DNA of 64,000 nt from Deuterostichococcus epilithicus (lineage: Eukaryota > Chlorophyta > Trebouxiophyceae > Prasiolales > Stichococcaceae). The translations under genes and the position numbers were made by a program. The stretch spans positions 620,001 to 684,000 of the forward strand of contig JAVTLE010000008.1 of the NCBI GenBank assembly GCA_033439295.1, read 5' to 3'. Under the pieces are notes generated by a model. That model was not told the DNA's origin. It searched no databases and was given only the letters and a program-made list of their open reading frames with translations. Below, piece after piece: positions 7,734-22,096 of this stretch; position 1 is the stretch's first letter; every line of letters begins with the position of its first letter.

Positions 7734-10700
7734 TTATGAGGTCCCAAGTGTGCCAAGAGCTACGGAGACGCCAAGCAAGACGGCCACATCGCAAACCAGC
7801 AAGATGCAGGCGTCAAACAGAAACTTGGGCGCAAACAGCGCCCACACCATCAGGTGGCGCCGCTGGATGGCCGCACTGGCCGTCGCCACAGCGGCGTTGA
7901 GCGTCCTGGCCGTCAGGAATGCCACAGCGGCGACCCGCAGGTTCCATTTGAAAGCTTCTGCACGCCGCTGCCGCTGCTGCTGCCGCCGCCGCATATCGTT
8001 GCCCAGCTCGCCTTCGCCTGGCGCCTTCTGCTCAGGCTGCGGCTCGCAGGTGTCCGCTCCTGGTAGCAGGGCCACCAGCGGCAGCGTCAAGCCAAGAGCG
8101 AGGAAGCCGCCAAAGGTGTTGAGCGCCAGCAGGGCGCCCGACTGCCAGAAGTTGAAGTCCTCCACGCCCGCGAAGCCTGCAGCCAGGCCGCAGCCGATAC
8201 TTGAATACAGGACCTCGCCCTGTGTCATGCACACTGCTGCAACGGCAGGCCAAAACCGTTCAGAGGCGTTCGCCAGCTGCAGAACCACCGATCGTCATGG
8301 TCGCACGACACACCCCATGCTTCAGAGTCGGATGGCACTCAGCGCAGCAAGCCGCCAGGCAACGTCCATGCAGGAAGGCGGTGACGATGCATGACATGAT
8401 GGAGCACTGCTGGATGCACACCTGCAGTGTACTGCAGGCCGGCAAACTCGCAGAAGTGGCCGGTGCAGAAGAACAGCTGGAGGCTGTGCAGCGACCAGAG
8501 GATGCCGCCCAGCGGTGCGGCGCTGCCGGCTCGTCCCCACAGCTCCGCCTGGGCCTGCTGCCTGCACGAATCGTGGCGAAGCGCCGTCGGTCCATGCTCA
8601 GAAGCGCACAGATGTGTCAAATTGCAGTCCGCTGCCTGGTGCCCAGTAGCTGCACCCGAATGGCGCATCGCCTTCGAGGCTGCAAGTGGTTCGAAAGAAC
8701 TGCGGATGCAGGGCAGAGGGATGCGCCACCTGAGCCACAGCAGCCGCAGCAGCGCCGCCGCCTGCACCGCCGCCAGCAGCAGCGGCGCCGGCCCGCGTCG
8801 GCCCAGCACCAGCGCCAAAGGTGCGCCAGTGGCCGCCGCCAGCTCGACCGCACACCCCTGTGCCGCTGCAACCGCCCCTCGCTGACGACGCCCTGCCTGC
8901 CCATGGACCGCCTGCTGGTCGGGGACCTGGTCGCTGTTGCCGCTGCCGGTGCAGCTGATGCTCCTGCCACCGCCGCCGCCGCAGACCGCCCGCAGCACGG
9001 CGAGCGCCGCGGCCGCGGCCGCGCAGCCGTACGCCATGCGAGGCAGTGCCAGGTGCAGGCGCGCCGTGCCGGGGCCAGCGGCGGAGGCCGCCAGCATCAC
9101 CTGCAAGGCGCGCCTGCCGCGGGCAGCGCCCCGCAGGCAGCGCTTCAGCAGCGAACCCACGGCACGCAGCGGCGCCACAGCCGGCACCAGCACTGCGAGC
9201 CAGGTCAGGCCCAGCCGCGCTGCGCCGGCAAGCGTGGGCGCCTCTGCAGACACGCCGGCTGCCGAGCCAGAAGCCGCGTGGCCGGCCCACTTCGCCGCCA
9301 GCCCCCAGACGTCGGCAACTGTGGCCGTTCTGCTGGGACTGCTGCCGCCGCCATCGCCTGCCGGCAGCGCAGCCTGAGCGTCCTCCCACACCCAGTGCAG
9401 CGCCACGAGGGCGTAGGCAGCCCACAGCAGACTCGACTGCATGCGACTGAGCAGCCTGCTGCTGAGTCGTGCCTGCGGGCGTGGTGCACTGGTGCCCGGC
9501 GCCTCTAGGGGCCACCGCGCCCGTGCGGCGGCGCCGCCGCCTGCTGCGCCGCCGGACAGCGTGTACGCCTGCAGCCGCCTGCCCAGCGGCAGCAGCAGCG
9601 CCGGCAGCAGCAGCAGCGGGCCGAACGCGATGGCCTGCCGCCACGCCACCGCCCAGGCGGCCGCCGCAGACGCCGAAGCTGCCGCCAGTGAATCGAGATC
9701 GACCGGCAGGAGCCGCCGCAGATGCGCTGTGGCGTCGCGCATGCCGGCGGCCCAGTCTGTGTCCGACAGAGCGAGGCGCCTCAGAAACACTGCCGCGCGC
9801 CACACGCCGGCCTCCCACTGCCCCGCCTGCAGCGGCGGCGCCGTCACTGGCTGGCGTGTGGCTGCGGCGGCGGCCGGCGCGGCGGCGGCGTNNGCCANNA
9901 GCAGCGTGTGGTGNTCCGCGGCANTGCGCCACATGGCGTCGTGCCNCGAGCGCCGCACGAGGCCCCGCGCCGCCAGGCCCCAGTTGCACGCCAGCAGCAG
10001 CACCGTGACCAGCGCCGCCTCGCTCGCCCGGCCGCCGCCGCGGCCTCGGCTGCTGGACAGCTGCCGCGACTGTCCGTCAGCTGCTTCGCCCGCGTGCTGG
10101 GCCTCAGTCTGGCCGTCCGTCGGCGCCGACAGCTCGCCGCCGTCCGCATCAGGTGCCTTGGTGGCGGGGCCCGTCGGCTCCGGCGCCCCAGCGGCGGCGG
10201 CGGCGGCAGCGGCACGAGCGTCTTTGCACCGCAGGTGCAGCGCAGTAGCAGAGCGGCCCAGCAGAGCGGTCAGCGCCGCCAGCAGGAAGGCCAGCATGCG
10301 GCCCTCGGCCAGGACGAAGCTGTTTGAGAACAGCGCCACCGCGTGCACGACGGCCGCCGCCGCAGCCGCGCCCTCCACGCTCAGCTCCCACAGCCGCACG
10401 TGTGCGCGGCTGGCCGCCTTGAGGACGGCGCCAGCGCCGCCGTTGNCGCCTGATGCGCCGGCGCGTGCGGTGCCCCAGCCGCCNGGGGTTTCCAGGGCTG
10501 CGGCGCTGCCAGGGCCAGCCTGAGCACGCTCCTGTCGAAGCTGGCCGTCTGCTGCACCAATGGGCTGCTGCTGCAAGGTGGAGCGAAACAGCGTCCAGCA
10601 CGCCGCCAGCTGTAGCGCGATGGCCGCAGCAAAGACCGCCAGGCCAGCCGCCATGGGCGCCGCTCCAAACTGCGTCCACTGGCGCCGCGCCAAGCCTGCT

Positions 10701-13928: not shown

Positions 13929-16900
13929 TTAAAACAGGCTGGAAAAGGGGTCGGTCTTGGCCTGGCCAGGCGGCAGCCCGCGTGGGTGTGGCCGCATGCC
14001 GCTTGGCGCCCCTGCCGGCTGACCCTGCAATGACGGCGCAGCAGCCGCGCCGCTAGATGGCGCGCCGCCCGCTAGATAACGCTGGCCCGCTGCTGCGTGC
14101 TGCTGCTGCCCCATTTGCGTGACTGGTGGCTGCTGCTGGTGCAGCGGGGCGGCATCGGCCGCGAGTCCGCCCAGCAGGTCGTCCGCATGCGGGTCGACTC
14201 CAAAGCTGTTGCCCAGTAGATCTGCCGCGCCAGTCTGCGTGCAGCAGACAAACATACTTGGTGCTACGGCTGGAGCGAGCGACACAGGAGCGAAAAGCGA
14301 CACAGCATCGACGTACTGCCAGGCGCCAGGACCGGAAGCAGCTCTGCCAACCAGCTCGTTCAGAGAGCAAGGCGCAGTCGGAGCTTCAGTAGATGGGCAG
14401 CAGTGTCCACCAGCAGGGAAGATATGGGGCTACATCTAGCGTCCAGTGGCAGAGAGCCGAGTGCGGACCATCAAGCAGCTGGATGGAACGGTTGGCACGG
14501 TGCTGCACCAACCTGCTGCGGCGTTGCCGCGGCGTTCGGCTCGGCGCCGCCCATGAGGTCATCCAGGTCGATGGCCGACCGGCCCGGCTGCTGCTGCGGC
14601 GCCGCCTGATGTGCTGCCTCGCCCACTGATAGGCCCTCCAGCTCTGCCAGCAGGTCGCCTGCATGGCAGCAACCCCCTTGTCATCTCGCCATGCTTTGCG
14701 GTACATCTGTAAACCACCACCCTGTACTTCATTGACAAGATGCCCCGTCCATAGCTGTACTGGTGGCATATTCCGCATGTTTGCAGACGTTGCACATACA
14801 GAGAGACAGTCTGTCGCTGGCATGCCAGTCTGGCTCCGAGTACTGCAACGACTCACACCAGTGTACTGCAAGTGACAGCCTGTCATTGCCCTGCAACTGT
14901 TCTCGTTAGGGGCCCAAAAGGCCAGGCTGGAATCCAGCGATGTTGGGCAGGGTGATGCTTCAGCCATAGGGCGAACCATGTGCGCAGACCGACGAGCACA
15001 CACGAGGTACTGTGAGCATGAAGACGTGAATGATAGGACTTTTTCGCATGATACTGCACTGTCTCCCATGCCTCTGCTGTTGTGAACGGACGGGCATGCA
15101 GCGTGCACATTCGGAGGCTCAGGCGTCTGCAGACGACGTTGCACCTGCAGCTTGCGAGGCAGCGTGGCGGATGGAATCGAAGGAGGTCAGTGGGTTGAGA
15201 CCAACGATGACGGTGGCGGCACCTGTCGCCTGCGGCAGCACTGCCGGCTGCGGCGCGGTGGCGGCCGGCTGCTGCGCATCATCACCCCCAAGGTCCAGCA
15301 GCATCGTGTCAGGCTCCTGATGCGGCGGCGGGCGCGGCCGCACCACCGGGGAGCCGGCCCTGGTTGACAAAATTGAGATAAAACCCTTCTTCAGCGCCAT
15401 CAGCCGCGGCCGCCCTACCGACTGGCAGCCGGTCCGGCGGCGCACATCCGCCTGGCAGGCTGGCTGAGTGCCAGGTCCAGGACAGCTGCAATGCACGTGC
15501 CGATCAGTGCGGGTGCTGCGAGCCAGCTGCAGACAAGGTGGCAGTGCCATCGGCTTCTTGGCGGGCGACGCACCCCGAGCCCTTTGTGGGCGAGACGCGG
15601 TGCAGCGCCCGGCGCGGCGGCGCGGGCGAGTGCTGCGGGCCGCCGNCGAACAGCNNTGCNGCACGCCGCTCCTTCTCGGCGCGCTGTGCCGCTTCCTCCT
15701 CCGACTCCTGCTGCCGCCGCCGCGGCGGCGGCGGTGGCGGGGCCGCCGCCTGGCTGCCCGTGCTGTCGGTGCGGGCTGCGCCGCAAATGGGGAGAAATTA
15801 TGGGGTCAGTGCTCATGCACACGAGCCCCGGCTCTGGGCCATGGCTCAAAGGCAGGCCTGAGCAAGTTCAATTGCCTGTATGTCGCTGCGAACACGAGCG
15901 CATCCTGGGTGCGCCAGGTCAACTGTTGAGAGACCTTTCAAATGGGCTGTGCCGCATGTCGCACTGGGAAGGGCGGGAACGCGCATGCAACCTCCAGCTT
16001 CGTTGATCGCCAGACACCGAAGCCGGATCACTGCAGGGCCGGAAGACGCACAGTGGGTCGGCTGCGCAGGCACGCCTGAAGGCGGGGGCGGCGCCTGCGG
16101 CGGCGCGGCGCTGGGCGCGGGTCCCCACCGCCCGCCGCCCGCCTTGCGCAGCAGCACCGGCTCCGATGCCGCCGCAGCTGCCACCGCACCGGCTGCCGCG
16201 CCGGCCGCTCCTGCGGCAAACGCCACCAACACGGAATCGCGTCGGCTTTCAGGTCGGGGGTTGCAGAACGCGCAGTCGGCATCAGTGGGTTGTTGTGTGA
16301 TTGCAGTCTCAGATAGCTGAGGCACCATGGCGGGGCTCGAAGTCGGACTGTGCAAATAGTTGGACTGGCTGTTGGCGCTGACGGGCAGAAAGCTGTGCCT
16401 TCCATGGAACAGGGAAACGAAGCTTGCCCGAGGCCAGCAGCTGGCCGCTCCCGTGCGGGCGCCCACCTGGTGCCGGGCCGGCGGCGGGTGCAGCCATCGG
16501 CGGCGCGGGCGCACGACCTGCCGGCAGCTGCGGCCGCTCGTAGGCCTTGAAGTTGATGGGCTTGGCGGCGACCGCCTCGTCGTGCGCCGACGCGCGCACC
16601 ACGCCCAGACTGCGCCGCTCCTCCGCTGTGCGTCATGAATGCGCAAAGCCATCGACGTGGAGAGTATGCGACCTGGACTTGCACTGCAGGACATCGCGTA
16701 ACCCCCCTTTCCCTCCCCTGGGCCCCTGGACGAGTCGCTTCCAGGCAGCAGTGCGCATGCTCCATGCACAGAGCACCAAAACCGAACAGTGGCGTTGTGA
16801 AGACGCAAGCCTTCCGCAGCTCCACCTCTCTGCCTCTGCCGCTGGCATGCGGCACGGCAGGCGCCTCGTGCATCCTGGATGGGAGAACACACGGTACCTA

Positions 16901-19900
16901 TCTGCCTCCAGTGCAGTTTCAAGTTGCAGCGTGACACACCTAGTATGTAGGGTGCCGCGCCGCTCTGCAGCGCCGCCTGCACAAAGGCGTTCAGGAAGGG
17001 CAGGTGCGGGTCGATCTCGATGTCCTCGCACGAGGCGTCCGGCGGCAGCGCCGCCTGCCGCGCCACCGGCTGCGCCCTGCGCCATGACAGCACGCGCTCC
17101 CGTCAAGGCAGGCAGGCGTCCTGTCGGGGATGGCTCGAGGATGGCTCGCGGCTTCGAGCGTCTTGCGCTGGCGCCCCACTGCCGCCGAGTGACCAGGGCT
17201 GCAGCGCACTCCTGCTGCAGCCTCGACCCTGACCGCTTCCCCGGGCTCCCAGGGCCCACTCTGCCCGCCGGTGAAGCAGGCAACAGCGCAACAGCCGCAG
17301 CAGACACGCATCCCCCGGCGAGATCCTGGAATTTCGGCTCGACCCGCACCTGAGCAGGGCGTGCAGCTCCAGGGCGCGCTGCTGCAGGTCGGTGTTGCGG
17401 CTCGCAGCTGCGTCCTCCACAGCCTGCTCCGCCGCCGGCGGCAGCGCCACGCTGCCCTGCAGCCGCAGATCCAAGCTGCGTCTTGATGCAGGCTGCAGAC
17501 CGTCCGACAGTCCAAGCTCCACACGGCGCTGCCGATGGCGCCACCATGCCAGACTGGTCACTTGGTGCCTCGCCTCCAAATCGGAGATGCCGTCCTGCGT
17601 AAGATGTTGTATTGGAGGTGGTTGTGTCGGGAGCAGCACGTTGGTGACAGGCCGGCGCGCGCCTGCGTGGCCAGCTTGGCCATGGCGGTGAGCAGGTAGC
17701 CGCGCACGGGGTCGCTGAGGGTGTGCTCCTCTGCCAGGGCGCCCAGCGCGCGCAGCACGCCCCCGGCACCCACATCCGCCAGCGTGCCGTACTCGCCCAG
17801 CACCCACAAGATGACCTGTGTACAGAGATGTAGGAGAGTTGTTTCGCCACCCCTCCCGAAATCATCCATCCGTCACAGAGAAGCCACATGGCCCCCAATC
17901 CCAAGCGGCACATGGGGCCCTTGCCTTCCGCGACTCAGTCGCTGCCCCAGGCAGAGAGGCTCCAGAACCTTGGATGACCTGGAGCCAGACCGTGGCGGCT
18001 GATGGAGGTTCGCCAAGTCGGGGGAGGTGTTCGAAACAGGCAGGCGACATGCCGGACGCGCACTGTGAGAAGCGCGTCAGACAGCTCGGGCCTGCGCAGC
18101 AGGTGCAAGTCGGAAGCAACCCAAACGCACGCTCACAAGATGGGCGAGACGTCACAGAGCGCACCGTGAGCAGCGCATCGGACAGCTTGGGCTTGCGCAG
18201 CAGGTCCAGGTAGGAGGCGACGACCTCGGAGCGCAGCCCAGCGTCGGCGTCGGCGTCACCCTGGCCGCTGCCCTCCGCTATGAGCCGCGTCAGGTTGGCC
18301 GCCATGCCCGGGGGGACCACATCGCCGCCCAGCTCGAACACCTGCAGCAGGAAGGCGATGATGCCCTCTCCGAATTCACGCGCAGCAGACGTCTGGTCGG
18401 GGAGTGTCGATCGGGCCTCTTGGCAGCAGGACACCGTGCTGGATTGGGCTGCGTCTGTGATGTCCATGCCGCCGCCGGCTGGAGCGCTGCGAACGGTCAG
18501 TCGTGTACTGACGCAGGCCGAGCGCTCCCGTCTGCCGAGATGCACCGCGCCGCAGGCGGCCCATGCAAGCGCCGCTCCGGCCGCTGCGGCGCCCAGCAGC
18601 CGCCCGCCCGCGGGCCCCACGGGCAGCCCGCCCACCTGGTTCATCGTGTCGATGAACCACTGGGTGTCGGGCGCGTATCGCTCGGCGAGGTCGCCGATGC
18701 GCTGCACCACGTCTGCCTTGGCCACATCGTCCGTGACGCCCCGCAGGTACTCCACCATTTTCTCCACTATCACCTGCAGATGGTTGTTTGTAACTTTCAT
18801 CCTCATAGAAAACCATCATCTCCACTTTCACCTGCAGCCGGCACCGTTGCTGAGGTTTGTTGTCCAGGTCAGCAGCCAGCGCTGTGTGTGTTGCTGGGCT
18901 GCACAAGGCTGCCGCCGATGCTTGGACCGGCAGGGGTGGAGGGTGAGCAAGCATCCGCATCCTGGGGCTGCGTGCATGCCCCTGCAGCCGGCGTGGGGCG
19001 AGGCTTGGTGCGCATCCGCGTCCACAGCTAGTGCGACTTCCCTACTGCCATCAGGGCGCCACAGCAGCCCGGGAACCCCCCCTCCCCCAGGCGCCCCGTG
19101 GGGCCGCCGCACCTCTACGTTGTTGGGCTTCGCCATCTTGAAGAGCAGCTCCAGGGTCTTCTTCTTCAGCGTCGCGTCTGGGTCCTCCAGGCAGTCGATG
19201 ACCGCCAGCTGGTGCTCCGCCGCGTACTTGGGGCTCAGGCGCACCATGCGCGCCAGCACGTCGATGCCCGTGTACCGCAGGTTGTGGCTCGCCGCGCGCA
19301 GGAAGGTGGCGATGATCTCCGCAGCTGCGTGCAAGCTCACGATTCTAGTGGCCGGTTCTATGCCGCAGAGTGCAGATGCGTCAGATTTGAGCGGCGGAGT
19401 GCAGGCGCCCTCAGTCATCGCCCATCATGGGATTTTCCTCAATGCCTCGCGTTGTGCGCTGATGCCGTTGCGCCTGGAAACACATCGCGAATGTGCCGGA
19501 GCGCTTGCTTCAGGTCCGCCGCAGCAGGACTGCGTCACCTTTGACGCCGCCGTCATCCAGATGGGATGGACTGAAAAGCTTGCGGTGAGGGCGGCAGGCG
19601 CACCCGACTGCAGCAGGTTGGCGTTGGGGTAGAGGGTGGTGATTGCGCGCGCGGCCTCGTACACAATGGCGTTGCCGATGGTGTTGCCATGCAGCGCGGC
19701 CTTCTGCATCGCGGCGCCCACCACGCCGTAGATGTTCTCGCTGGCCGCCTGGTCCCCCGCACCCAGCAGCCCCAGCAGCTTCAGCAGCTTGATCTGCAGC
19801 AGCCGGGCGGCACGAGCATGTTTCGGCACGATGGGCAGCCTGCGGCGCTCTGGGTGCTGTGGGCACATGGTGCGGCATCTGCACCATGTTGGAGGACAAC

Positions 19901-22096
19901 CGAGTGGCAGTCCTCTGTGTGCAGCTCGCCTATAGCACGGAGGATTTCTTTCCAAGTGGTGGCACCATAGCGTTTCAGAATCTCAAACGTGCAGTGTGAT
20001 CGTGCGTGACAAGAGCCACATGAGAGCGGAAAGGCTGAAGCTCTCCGCCTCTGATGCATAACTGTCAGTTGTTTTCGAGTTGCATATTTGGAATGTTATG
20101 GTGAAATATCAAGCCGGGTGCGGCATTACCTAGACGAAGGCCGCCGGGACCCTGTGGTGGTCGAACGCCTTGGGCTACTTGAGATGAGCACCAGCAGCAA
20201 CTCCGAGCAGCAGTTTCATTCCGGTGCACCGTCCCACCTGGATGAAGGGCGCCGGGACCTTGTGGTAGTCGAACGCCTTGGGCAGCTTGCCGTCGGTAAT
20301 CTGCTTGAGGATGGAGACGAAGGAGGGGATGAGGTTCTTGTACGGCCGCGCGTCGCGGGCCACCAGCTCCCCCAGCGCACACAGCGACGCGCACATCACC
20401 GACGGGTCCTGCGCAGGATGAGCAGGGTTCACACAAAAACCTGCGAGATCTGATGTCGTTTTCCGTACAACCGTTGCATCGTCGTGCATCGCATGCAACC
20501 GGCTCCCCCAGAGTGCGGCGCACACCGCTGGCGAACCCTGCACAGCCAGGGGCCAGGGTCGTTGGGGGCTGTCTCGCCGATGTGCCGATGCTGCTTCACT
20601 GGAAAGCCGCCCGTCGCGTGCGACCAGGCCCCAAAGCACGCAAAGCGAAGAGCGCATCAATGGCGGATGCTGCGTGGCAGATCTCCAGCAATCGAGTTTG
20701 GCACTGCATGGGTCCACTTGAGCATCTAAGCTCAAGCTTGGTGGCACGTCTTGAGACAGGTTGCAGTTGAGAACATTTGCGAGAGCTGGCGGTGGCGACA
20801 TGGGCACAGACAGCGATGCCCAGTGGCGACCTCTGCGACAATCATCGATCCTAGGCCATCGATCCTTTGCACTGATGTGGCGCAGGCCGCACCACGGCAG
20901 AGCAGCACCATCGCCAGTAGGAGTTCTTTCGCGTCTCGGTTCTTTCACGTCTGCGTTTGGCGGACCCACCTCGCCGCACGGCATGCGGCGCAGGCGGCGC
21001 AACCGGGAACAGCAAAACCTCCCTCGCCCCGGAGTCTCCCACCTTGTCGCACAGCATGCGCCGCAGGCGGCGCAACCGGGAACAGCAAAACCTCCCTCGC
21101 CCCGGAGTCTCCCACCTTGTCGCACAGCATGCGCCGCAGGTGGCCGTTGACGTCCGCGCCCGACAGCGGACCATCGTGGCGCGGGTCCAGCTGCTCGAAG
21201 CGGTGCAGCGCCATGACCGCCTTTTTGCGCACCAGCTCCCGGGGGTGGTCCAGCAGCTTGACCACCGGGCCCAGCACCGCCGTCACCAGGTCCGCGTTGA
21301 TGAGTTTGCACACCGCTGTCAACGCCGTGCACACTGCGGCAAGGGAGTGGGGAAGTACAGTGATTGACATCACGGCATCCTACAGAGTGGGTGTTTGATT
21401 GCTGTTGTGCAAGTCCTGCATGCAGACCTGGCTGATGCTGACCGAGCCGTCACGCAGCCCCTGAGAGCTTGCCACCTGACGCTGACAGCATGTGAAGTCG
21501 CGCACCAATGAGCATGTTGTCGTCGGCCAGGTCGCGCGTGATGGTGTTGACGATCAGCACGATCAGGTCGCTGTTGCTGTCCAGGAACAGCGTCGACGCC
21601 AGGTATGCCACCTGCAGCGCATGCATCATTCACGCGTCGCTATGCCTGGTAATGGACGGGCTCTGGCGCAGCTGCCAGGACCTCGAACGCAAAGCGCAGC
21701 CAGTACTGATTCAATCCAATAGGCCAGCAAGCTGTGTGCCGCAACCCAGATGGCGCGCCCTTGTTTCCGTTGAGGATCCCATTCTCTGCGGCTGACGTAC
21801 AGCAGCAACGTGCAGCCCGCGCGGAACCTCGCCTTCTTGGTGAGCATGGCCTTGTCGGAGCAGGCGCGTAGCGCGTTGACGTGGCCCCAGCTGGCGTCGT
21901 GGCCCAGCATCTCCACGTAGATGAGGCGGACCATGAGCTCCTTCATCTGGCGGGCATCGACGCGCGGGTCCTTGAGCCGCGGCTTCAGCACCTCCACCTC
22001 CCGCCCTATGATGGCGTCCTCCTCCGCCTTGCTCTTGCACTCGCCTATGGCGCGTATGAGCGCGTCGAACTCGCGGGACCAGGCCTGCGCCTTCAT
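13929..22096 (-). CDS. AP4E1: AP-4 adaptor complex subunit epsilon
   Basis: This is the large subunit of the AP-4 coat, which sorts cargo at the trans-Golgi network. Exons read leftward: 22096-21833 (REFDALIRAIGECKSKAEED, MVRLIYVEMLGHDASWGHV), 21611-21506 (YLASTLFLDSNSDLIVLIVN), ~21334-21116 (KLINADLVTAVLGPVVKLL, ALHRFEQLDP), 20408-20238 (SFVSILKQITDGKLPKAFDY), ~19799-19602, ~19325-19112 (YTGIDVLARMV, HQLAVIDCLEDPDATLKKK), 18773-~18632, ~18345-18165, ~17817-17650 (WVLGEYG), ~17440-17345 (DLQQRALELHALL), ~17060-16935 (PPDASCEDIEIDPHLPFLN). A Pro/Ala/Glu-rich tail follows, with LLDLGGD near 15310, DLDDLMGG near 14560 and TDPFSSLF at the stop. The trunk follows the plant AP-4 epsilon order closely. 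Intron 1 appears to be GC-AG (AAG|GCGAGG). Several introns hold decayed copies of exon edges, listed separately. An earlier in-frame Met near 22174 is possible. Confidence 0.93.
18064..18111 (-). repeat. Decayed copy of an AP4E exon 3' end with its splice donor
   Basis: Read on the minus strand, these 48 bases copy the end of the AP4E exon that finishes at 18165, shifted by 101 bases into the next intron. The genuine exon encodes LDLLRKPKLSDALLT and is followed by GTGCGC; the copy encodes LHLLRRPELSDALLT and is also followed by GTGCGC. I count 9 mismatches in 48 aligned bases. The copy is not needed for the reading frame of the gene. Confidence 0.85.
18811..18836 (-). repeat. Partial copy of an AP4E exon 5' edge with its acceptor
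   Basis: On the minus strand CTGCAG|GTGAAAGTGGAGATG at 18831 and below mirrors the true acceptor CTGCAG|GTGATAGTGGAGAAA at 18773, 58 bases upstream in the transcript. Similarity fades after about 20 bases into the exon side. Confidence 0.7.
20130..20176 (-). repeat. Decayed copy of AP4E exon 4 3' end with a splice donor
   Basis: On the minus strand this 47-base stretch reads PKAFDHHRVPAAFV then TAG and GTAATG. The genuine exon end 108 bases away reads PKAFDYHKVPAPFIQ then GTGGGA. I count 6 mismatches in 47 bases. The last codon has changed from CAG to TAG, so splicing at this copy would end the frame. The shift of 108 is a multiple of three. Confidence 0.88.
20604..20669 (-). repeat. Decayed copy of AP4E exon 4 5' half with its acceptor
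   Basis: About 261 bases before the real exon 4 start (20408), the intron contains GCAG| followed by 66 bases that align codon for codon with the exon start: HPPLMRSSLCVLWGLVARDG against DPSVMCASLCALGELVARDA. I count 46 of 66 identical bases and 12 of 22 identical residues. The frame stays open over the aligned part. Confidence 0.82.
20971..21141. repeat. 73-bp tandem repeat spanning the donor of AP4E exon 3
   Basis: A 73-base unit is present twice in full and partly a third time, with GCATGCGCCGCAGG at about 20981, 21054 and 21127. On the minus strand each unit contains the exon end LRRMLCDK (or a variant) followed by a GTGGGA/GTGGGT donor. The donor at 21116 joins in frame to exon 4 (DPSVMCASL); the downstream copies near 21043 and 20971 would shift the frame because 73 is not a multiple of three. 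The two complete copies are almost identical, so the duplication looks recent. Confidence 0.9.

Follow-up and report, generated by a model that had tools for sequence, protein, structure and literature searches.

Copies of exon edges in the adjoining introns of AP4E and other genes of Deuterostichococcus epilithicus

Results

AP4E and the copies of the edges of exon 4

We analyzed a 64,000-nucleotide stretch of the Deuterostichococcus epilithicus genome (the window; contig 7, positions 620001–684000). The genome comprises 46.8 Mb in 21 contigs; the GC content is 63%. Genes were predicted using our own self-training ab initio gene finder, which was run on 324 kb of this one genome (264 kb of contig 7 and 60 kb of contig 1). 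On the minus strand of the window, AP4E was predicted with 18 exons, and a predicted AP4E exon contains undetermined bases (X in the translation) at approximately 15574–15775. A 434-residue stretch of the predicted protein matched the solved AP-4 complex subunit epsilon-1 chain (E = 1e-106), and Adaptin_N was recognized in the AP4E peptide (7.7e-73). The alignment to AP-4 epsilon-1 was ungapped across the exon 3/4 and exon 4/5 junctions, with no insertion where exons 3, 4, and 5 join. These results indicate that exon 4 occupies positions 20238–20408 (minus strand), as also predicted by the gene finder, and that the adjoining splice sites give an ordinary AP4E protein.

The initial annotation had described a copy of the last 47 bases of exon 4, with its donor, in intron 4 and a copy of the first 66 bases, with the acceptor, in intron 3. 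Alignment confirmed the positions, lengths, and counts given for both. The donor-side copy (20128–20181, minus strand) comprises the 3′-terminal 52 nt of exon 4 and the GT that follows, at an offset of 108 nt, and is identical to 20236–20289 at 47 of 54 positions without gaps. It contains two in-frame TAG codons; within the 47 bases, 6 mismatches were counted, and the last codon had become TAG, as described. The outer start copy (20604–20669, minus strand) corresponds to the first 66 nt of exon 4 with the acceptor AG, lies at an offset of 261 nt, and is in frame and stop-free up to exon 4; 12 of its 22 residues equal those of exon 4, and its best local stretch is identical at 41 of 54 positions. 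In 1000 dinucleotide shuffles, under each of two scoring schemes, no score matched that of the local alignment of exon 4 to intron 3 or to intron 4, and the earlier view that the copies exceed chance and represent duplication was upheld. The copies are 13–25% diverged from the exon. The similarity stops 52 and 64 nt into exon 4, the middle of which has no copy.

Exon 4 is separated from the donor-side copy by the first 56 nt of intron 4 (20182–20237, minus strand), a spacer that has no similarity to the sequence after that copy (flank p = 0.90) and whose sole match in the 324 kb is itself. Between exon 4 and the outer start copy lies a weaker middle copy of the exon 4 start with an acceptor-like CTGTGCAG (20474–20545, minus strand), the offset of which (about 129–136 nt) is half of 261. 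Its score of 21 was reached by 0 of 2000 shuffles, and comparison with foreign introns gave p = 0.013. Both the outer and the middle copy are similar to exon 4 but not to one another (514 of 2000 shuffles reached the outer–middle score); the outer copy is closer to exon 4 than the nearer middle copy (scores of 29 vs 21).

Use of the donor at 20129 would add 108 nt with in-frame TAG codons, whereas use of the acceptor at 20670 would add 87 codons without a stop; 40 of the 193 introns of at least 261 nt are equally open. The middle acceptor, or the donors of the exon 3 array described below (+73 and +146), would cause a frameshift. The splice sites in the exon 4 copies score lower than the true ones (donor, 1.5 vs 6.4; acceptor, 4.4 vs 6.7). 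As a separate observation, the whole of AP4E intron 3 (20409–21115, minus strand; 707 nt) is stop-free in the frame of exon 4, which was equaled by 5 of 1000 shuffles.

Further edge copies were found in AP4E. Exon 3 (21116–21333, minus strand; placed by the gene finder and the AP-4 epsilon-1 alignment) overlaps a tandem array of 2.5 units of 73 bp (20965–21144, minus strand), in which its last nucleotides, the donor, and the start of intron 3 are repeated, the intron part included; the units are 95% identical. The end of exon 8 (18165–18341, minus strand; gene finder) is copied with its donor in intron 8 (18058–18120, minus strand) at an offset of 101 nt, with a score of 62 and 83% identity over 63 nt ungapped. 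A possible and weak short copy of the exon 7 start lies at 18812–18837 (minus strand; offset, 58 nt; 88% over 26 nt) and scored only 25 in the edge survey.

Survey of exon edges

The gene finder gave 54 genes with at least 450 coding bases and 635 introns in the 324 kb, and the exon boundaries outside AP4E are ab initio predictions only. Approximately 13% of the predicted donors are GC, not GT; the donor consensus is CAG|GTGCGC, and the acceptor consensus is (T/C)GCAG|G. Genes rich in introns and in GC are in keeping with a green alga. A Pfam scan of the peptides around copied edges recognized a family in 9 of 10 cases, AP4E among them, and gave nothing in one; the families were Ribosomal_S19e, Adaptin_N, Glyco_transf_92, AAA_2/ClpB_D2-small, PP2C, IF3_N, LIAS_N, tRNA_Me_trans, and DNA_pol_B. 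These recognitions support the predicted genes, not every exon boundary. Scans of single exons, the sequences of which are too short, gave a match in one of three, beneath its cut-off.

For 613 exons (at least 40 nt), the 80 nt at either end were aligned to each neighboring intron (at least 45 nt), and a score of at least 34 was taken as a clear copy. The introns of other genes (foreign introns) served as the null. An edge had a clear copy in its facing intron in 23 of 1144 comparisons, and in the opposite intron (the wrong side) in 2 of 1144. On the right side, starts were copied in the upstream intron (12/577) as often as ends in the downstream intron (11/567). Both wrong-side cases (start in the downstream intron, 1/567; end in the upstream intron, 1/577), the pattern expected of whole-exon copies, came from one 55-nt exon, which has copies of almost its full length on either side. 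The foreign-intron null gave an expectation of 0–0.2 per class. Edge copies occur on two contigs and in 13 of the 54 genes, with four copies in AP4E; exon 4, presented in the initial annotation as exceptional, has comparable counterparts in other sampled genes. A weaker tail was also present: 92 of 960 right-side edges, against 44 expected, scored above the 95th percentile of foreign scores, compared with 52 on the wrong side.

No inverted edge copy was found at a score of at least 30 in 2288 comparisons. The interiors of exons of at least 200 nt gave no match to adjacent introns at a score of at least 34 in 246 comparisons, and one at 30. Edges compared with non-adjacent introns reached 34 in 7 of 18,934 cases, and one start edge scored 48 in a nearby non-adjacent intron. 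An annotation-blind repeat scan gave 37 pairs (17 exon–intron, 9 intron–intron, 7 exon–exon, and 4 intergenic); shuffling the 264-kb block five times gave 0–1 matches per shuffle. The exon member contained at most 8 intron bases in 16 of the 17 exon–intron pairs, a class that is exon-rich by definition. One pair, at window −56708 (near 563.3 kb on contig 7 and thus 56.7 kb before the window begins; L008), lies within a GCC-rich predicted gene whose peptide resembles, by eye, a Ty3-type integrase; the pair is doubtful and was retained in every count.

Shape of the copies

The shape of the copies was analyzed at 25 right-side loci with a score of at least 32. All copies are direct, with end-copies downstream and start-copies upstream of the exon; the offsets are 67–151 nt at 22 loci and 168, 202, and 261 nt at the rest, and the host introns are 1.7–9.7 times as long as the offset. 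A second copy was detected at p ≤ 0.03 at six loci, where under one was expected. The ratio of the second to the first offset was about two or one half at five of these (2.00, 2.00, 1.83, 0.52, and 0.48) and 2.60 at the sixth. An exon of the IF-3 gene (L023, about 9393–9991; contig 1, about 519.4–520.0 kb) has start copies at 126 and 255 nt and end copies at 104 and 208 nt, the same architecture as AP4E exon 4.

Similarity between the intron flanks was significant (p < 0.05) at 5 of the 25 loci. AP4E exon 3 and a ClpB-like exon are near-identical over both halves, the IF-3 exon end is 83% identical, and the others are the 55-nt exon (start side) and one 19-nt match. Three extra loci, at which the copies had been mispredicted as mini-exons, share no flank (p = 0.47, 0.47, and 0.89), and intron-side similarity is thus retained at 5 of 28 loci, the exon–exon pair at 134081 being left out. 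Sorted by exon identity, the intron side is shared at 0 of 3 loci at 0.90–0.95, 2 of 11 at 0.82–0.90, and 0 of 11 at 0.70–0.82. Among copies of at least 26 nt without intron-side similarity, none is above 93% identity.

We calculated an identity profile for 20 loci, i.e., the 25 minus five young or whole-exon ones. The exon-side identity was 0.78–0.83 at −6 to −20, 0.60 in the last five bases, and at background beyond −70, whereas the intron side was at background from 6 nt in, past the splice consensus. The inner ends of the copies fell between −21 and +20 of the splice site (median, +1.5), and 17 of 20 were within 10 nt. GT follows 9 of the 12 end-copies, and GC follows one more; AG is lost in 7 of the 13 start-copies.

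Differences between copy and exon at the 25 loci were distributed over the codon positions as 64/48/71; 12 gaps shift the frame, and 3 of 354 codons are stops. The position counts and the gaps indicate that the copies are not coding. Exchange between diverged alleles was rejected, as it predicts mainly third-position differences. A hand tally of the 20 loci gave 21/19/15 for the ten with an identity of at least 0.82 and 36/20/50 for the ten more diverged. Splice sites of the opposite kind at the outer ends of the copies were no more common than at random intron sites (mean p = 0.42, 25 loci), and the proposal of a pseudo-exon with a paired acceptor and donor was not supported. Some copies outside AP4E (−85814, 33370, and 23228) contain a splice site equal in strength to the true one.

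Insertion of cDNA, in which a copy would run on into the next exon, was also rejected; the sequence following the copies scored at most 25 against the neighboring exon, and the 99% point of the flank null was 26. Of the spacers, 21 of 25 matched themselves alone within the 324 kb. An introner (a mobile intron-making element) was rejected for AP4E on the basis of these spacers and of the 801-bp region, which, among the best candidates scored, had one match genome-wide, namely itself.

Discussion

Short stretches at exon ends have been duplicated into the adjoining introns, and the extra copies are probably hidden by splicing. AP4E is one of several affected genes, so the pattern concerns how introns grow, not AP4E alone. 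Our preferred reading, to which we assign a probability of roughly one half, is that tandem duplications spanning exon–intron boundaries are hidden by splicing and that a further process, perhaps re-copying, keeps the exon half recognizable. Short tandem duplications with a unit of roughly 70–150 bp would arise recurrently across these boundaries. If a donor or acceptor lies within the unit, the spliceosome may keep using the copy attached to the remaining exon; the mRNA would then stay the same and the extra copy would be buried in the intron, downstream of the exon for end-copies and upstream for start-copies. Splicing at the copied edges would be unchanged. The intron halves of the unit would diverge by drift, and the exon half of the buried copy would most likely be re-copied now and then, with the constrained exon some 100 bp distant as the source, by conversion or slippage between direct repeats.

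The young loci, the regular arrays, and the side asymmetry support the tandem duplication part of this reading. We infer the re-copying step because the similarity stops sharply at the splice site. No identical tract was seen among the loci as a trace of re-copying, and re-copying driven by proximity would not predict the order in AP4E, where the outer start copy is nearer in sequence to exon 4 than the inner one. Splice-junction-anchored copying or an unexpectedly fast intron turnover could take the place of re-copying.

Plain neutral decay of boundary-spanning tandem duplications, in which nothing is re-copied and the exon half seems conserved as one of its two copies is constrained, is a possible but less favored alternative. 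It is the simplest account and covers the side, the orientation, the arrays, and the young loci, and the more diverged loci could in part have lost their intron similarity in this manner. However, a neutral-decay simulation in the same pipeline, built for donor sides and applied to both sides, predicted that 19–22 of the 28 loci would keep the intron side (p < 0.05) at indel/substitution ratios of 0.1–2, and none of 200,000 draws was as low as the five observed. The intron side is missing even among the least diverged copies (0 of 3 at an identity of 0.90–0.95). Selection on the copies offers no ready way out of this discrepancy because of the spread of differences over the codon positions, the frameshifting gaps, and the stops, and neither does exon-only insertion because several loci are regularly spaced arrays.

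A tentative further proposal is that edge copies in the neighboring intron are repeatedly rewritten or newly deposited by a process that recognizes where exons end, for example repair that uses spliced transcripts or the exon itself as template; similarity would then end at the splice site, and both intron flanks would be unrelated. Splice-junction-anchored copying of the exon edge alone, in which a boundary-aware process inserts an edge copy or filler some tens of nucleotides away, appears rather unlikely. Possible routes include breakage where spliced-mRNA:DNA hybrids end and repair templated by the exon. The position of the inner ends at the splice site with background similarity beyond, the self-matching spacers, and the equal involvement of exon starts and ends are consistent with such anchored copying. 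Duplication of whole units better suits the regular array spacing and those young loci that include intron sequence, and the GT or GC after most end-copies indicates that a few intron bases were copied too. Copying from a plain cDNA is contradicted by the low scores of the post-copy sequence against the neighboring exon; the AP4E exon 4 spacer scored 27 against exon 5, about the 99% point of the flank null, and both are CTG-rich.

Selection might instead keep the copies as decoy splice sites or regulatory pseudo-exons, which we regard as improbable. Several copies hold a good splice site, mainly donors, and the initial suggestion of a poison exon could hold at most for the distal AP4E donor, the use of which would bring an early stop. 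It does not fit the distal acceptor, where the added codons are open, and the outer ends of the copies have no matching site of the opposite kind. AG is lost from about half of the start-copies, and the distribution of differences and the frameshifting gaps appear unconstrained.

Remnants of whole-exon tandem duplications, as also proposed in the initial annotation, are highly improbable. The 55-nt exon copied nearly in full on both sides fits this proposal, but the similarity to exon 4 ends well inside the exon, its middle is uncopied, the offsets of 108 and about 130 nt are smaller than its length of 171 nt, and the interiors of long exons lack clear copies. Chance or an assembly artefact has a negligible probability, since the shuffles, the divergence of the exon 4 copies, which is not a product of misassembly, and the recurrence on two contigs all stand against it; the 95%-identical 73-bp array alone could be questioned.

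The process would provide a cheap route for introns to grow and to gain spare splice sites, and a duplication that would destroy an exon may be tolerated where it lies across the exon's edge. Given copies at this frequency among the edges and in roughly a quarter of the genes, the genome would be suited to following the process in copies of every age. Simple duplication and decay do not predict so abrupt an end of similarity at the splice site; this feature provides a testable lead to rewriting of DNA from an exon template.

Comparison with known systems

In tandem exon duplication and in mutually exclusive exons, a copy of coding sequence lies in the next intron. Here, copying is confined to the edge, the reading frame is often disrupted, and no complete pair of splice sites was found, the 55-nt exon being the exception with regard to whole-exon copying. 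Decoy and poison exons rely on a cryptic intron splice site resembling a real one. The AP4E copies share with them the cryptic site and the early stop if the distal donor is used, but differ in having no site pair and no sign of constraint.

No report of exon-edge copies bounded by splice sites was found among the matches listed for open-licence PMC text, which does not prove their absence from the literature. Neither burial of copies in existing introns across many genes nor a limit of similarity at the splice site is described in the relevant passages of PMC4974935 and PMC2891723. The closest case among these matches is the potato RdRp gene, in which a tandem duplication across an intron–exon boundary made a new intron and altered the gene structure, most splice signals being derived from the parental boundary; this single case has ten differences between the copies, and another tandem duplication of 83 bp lies in the first intron (Ma et al. 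2016, PMC4974935). A duplication across an exon–intron boundary is common to both systems. In contrast to the potato gene as described there, the present copies lie inside existing introns of several genes, splicing is apparently unchanged, and the intron half is mostly lost.

In the Rogers/Hellsten model (as cited in PMC4974935), tandem duplication of exon sequence containing a proto-splice site yields a new intron equal in length to the duplicated segment, and coding duplications with a proto-splice site are known from Drosophila (PMC2891723). The present copies resemble these cases, as far as the cited passages describe them, in that a local tandem duplication of coding sequence is absorbed by splicing. 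Unlike in the model, the host introns here are longer than the offset at every locus, and the exon junctions of AP4E are unchanged.
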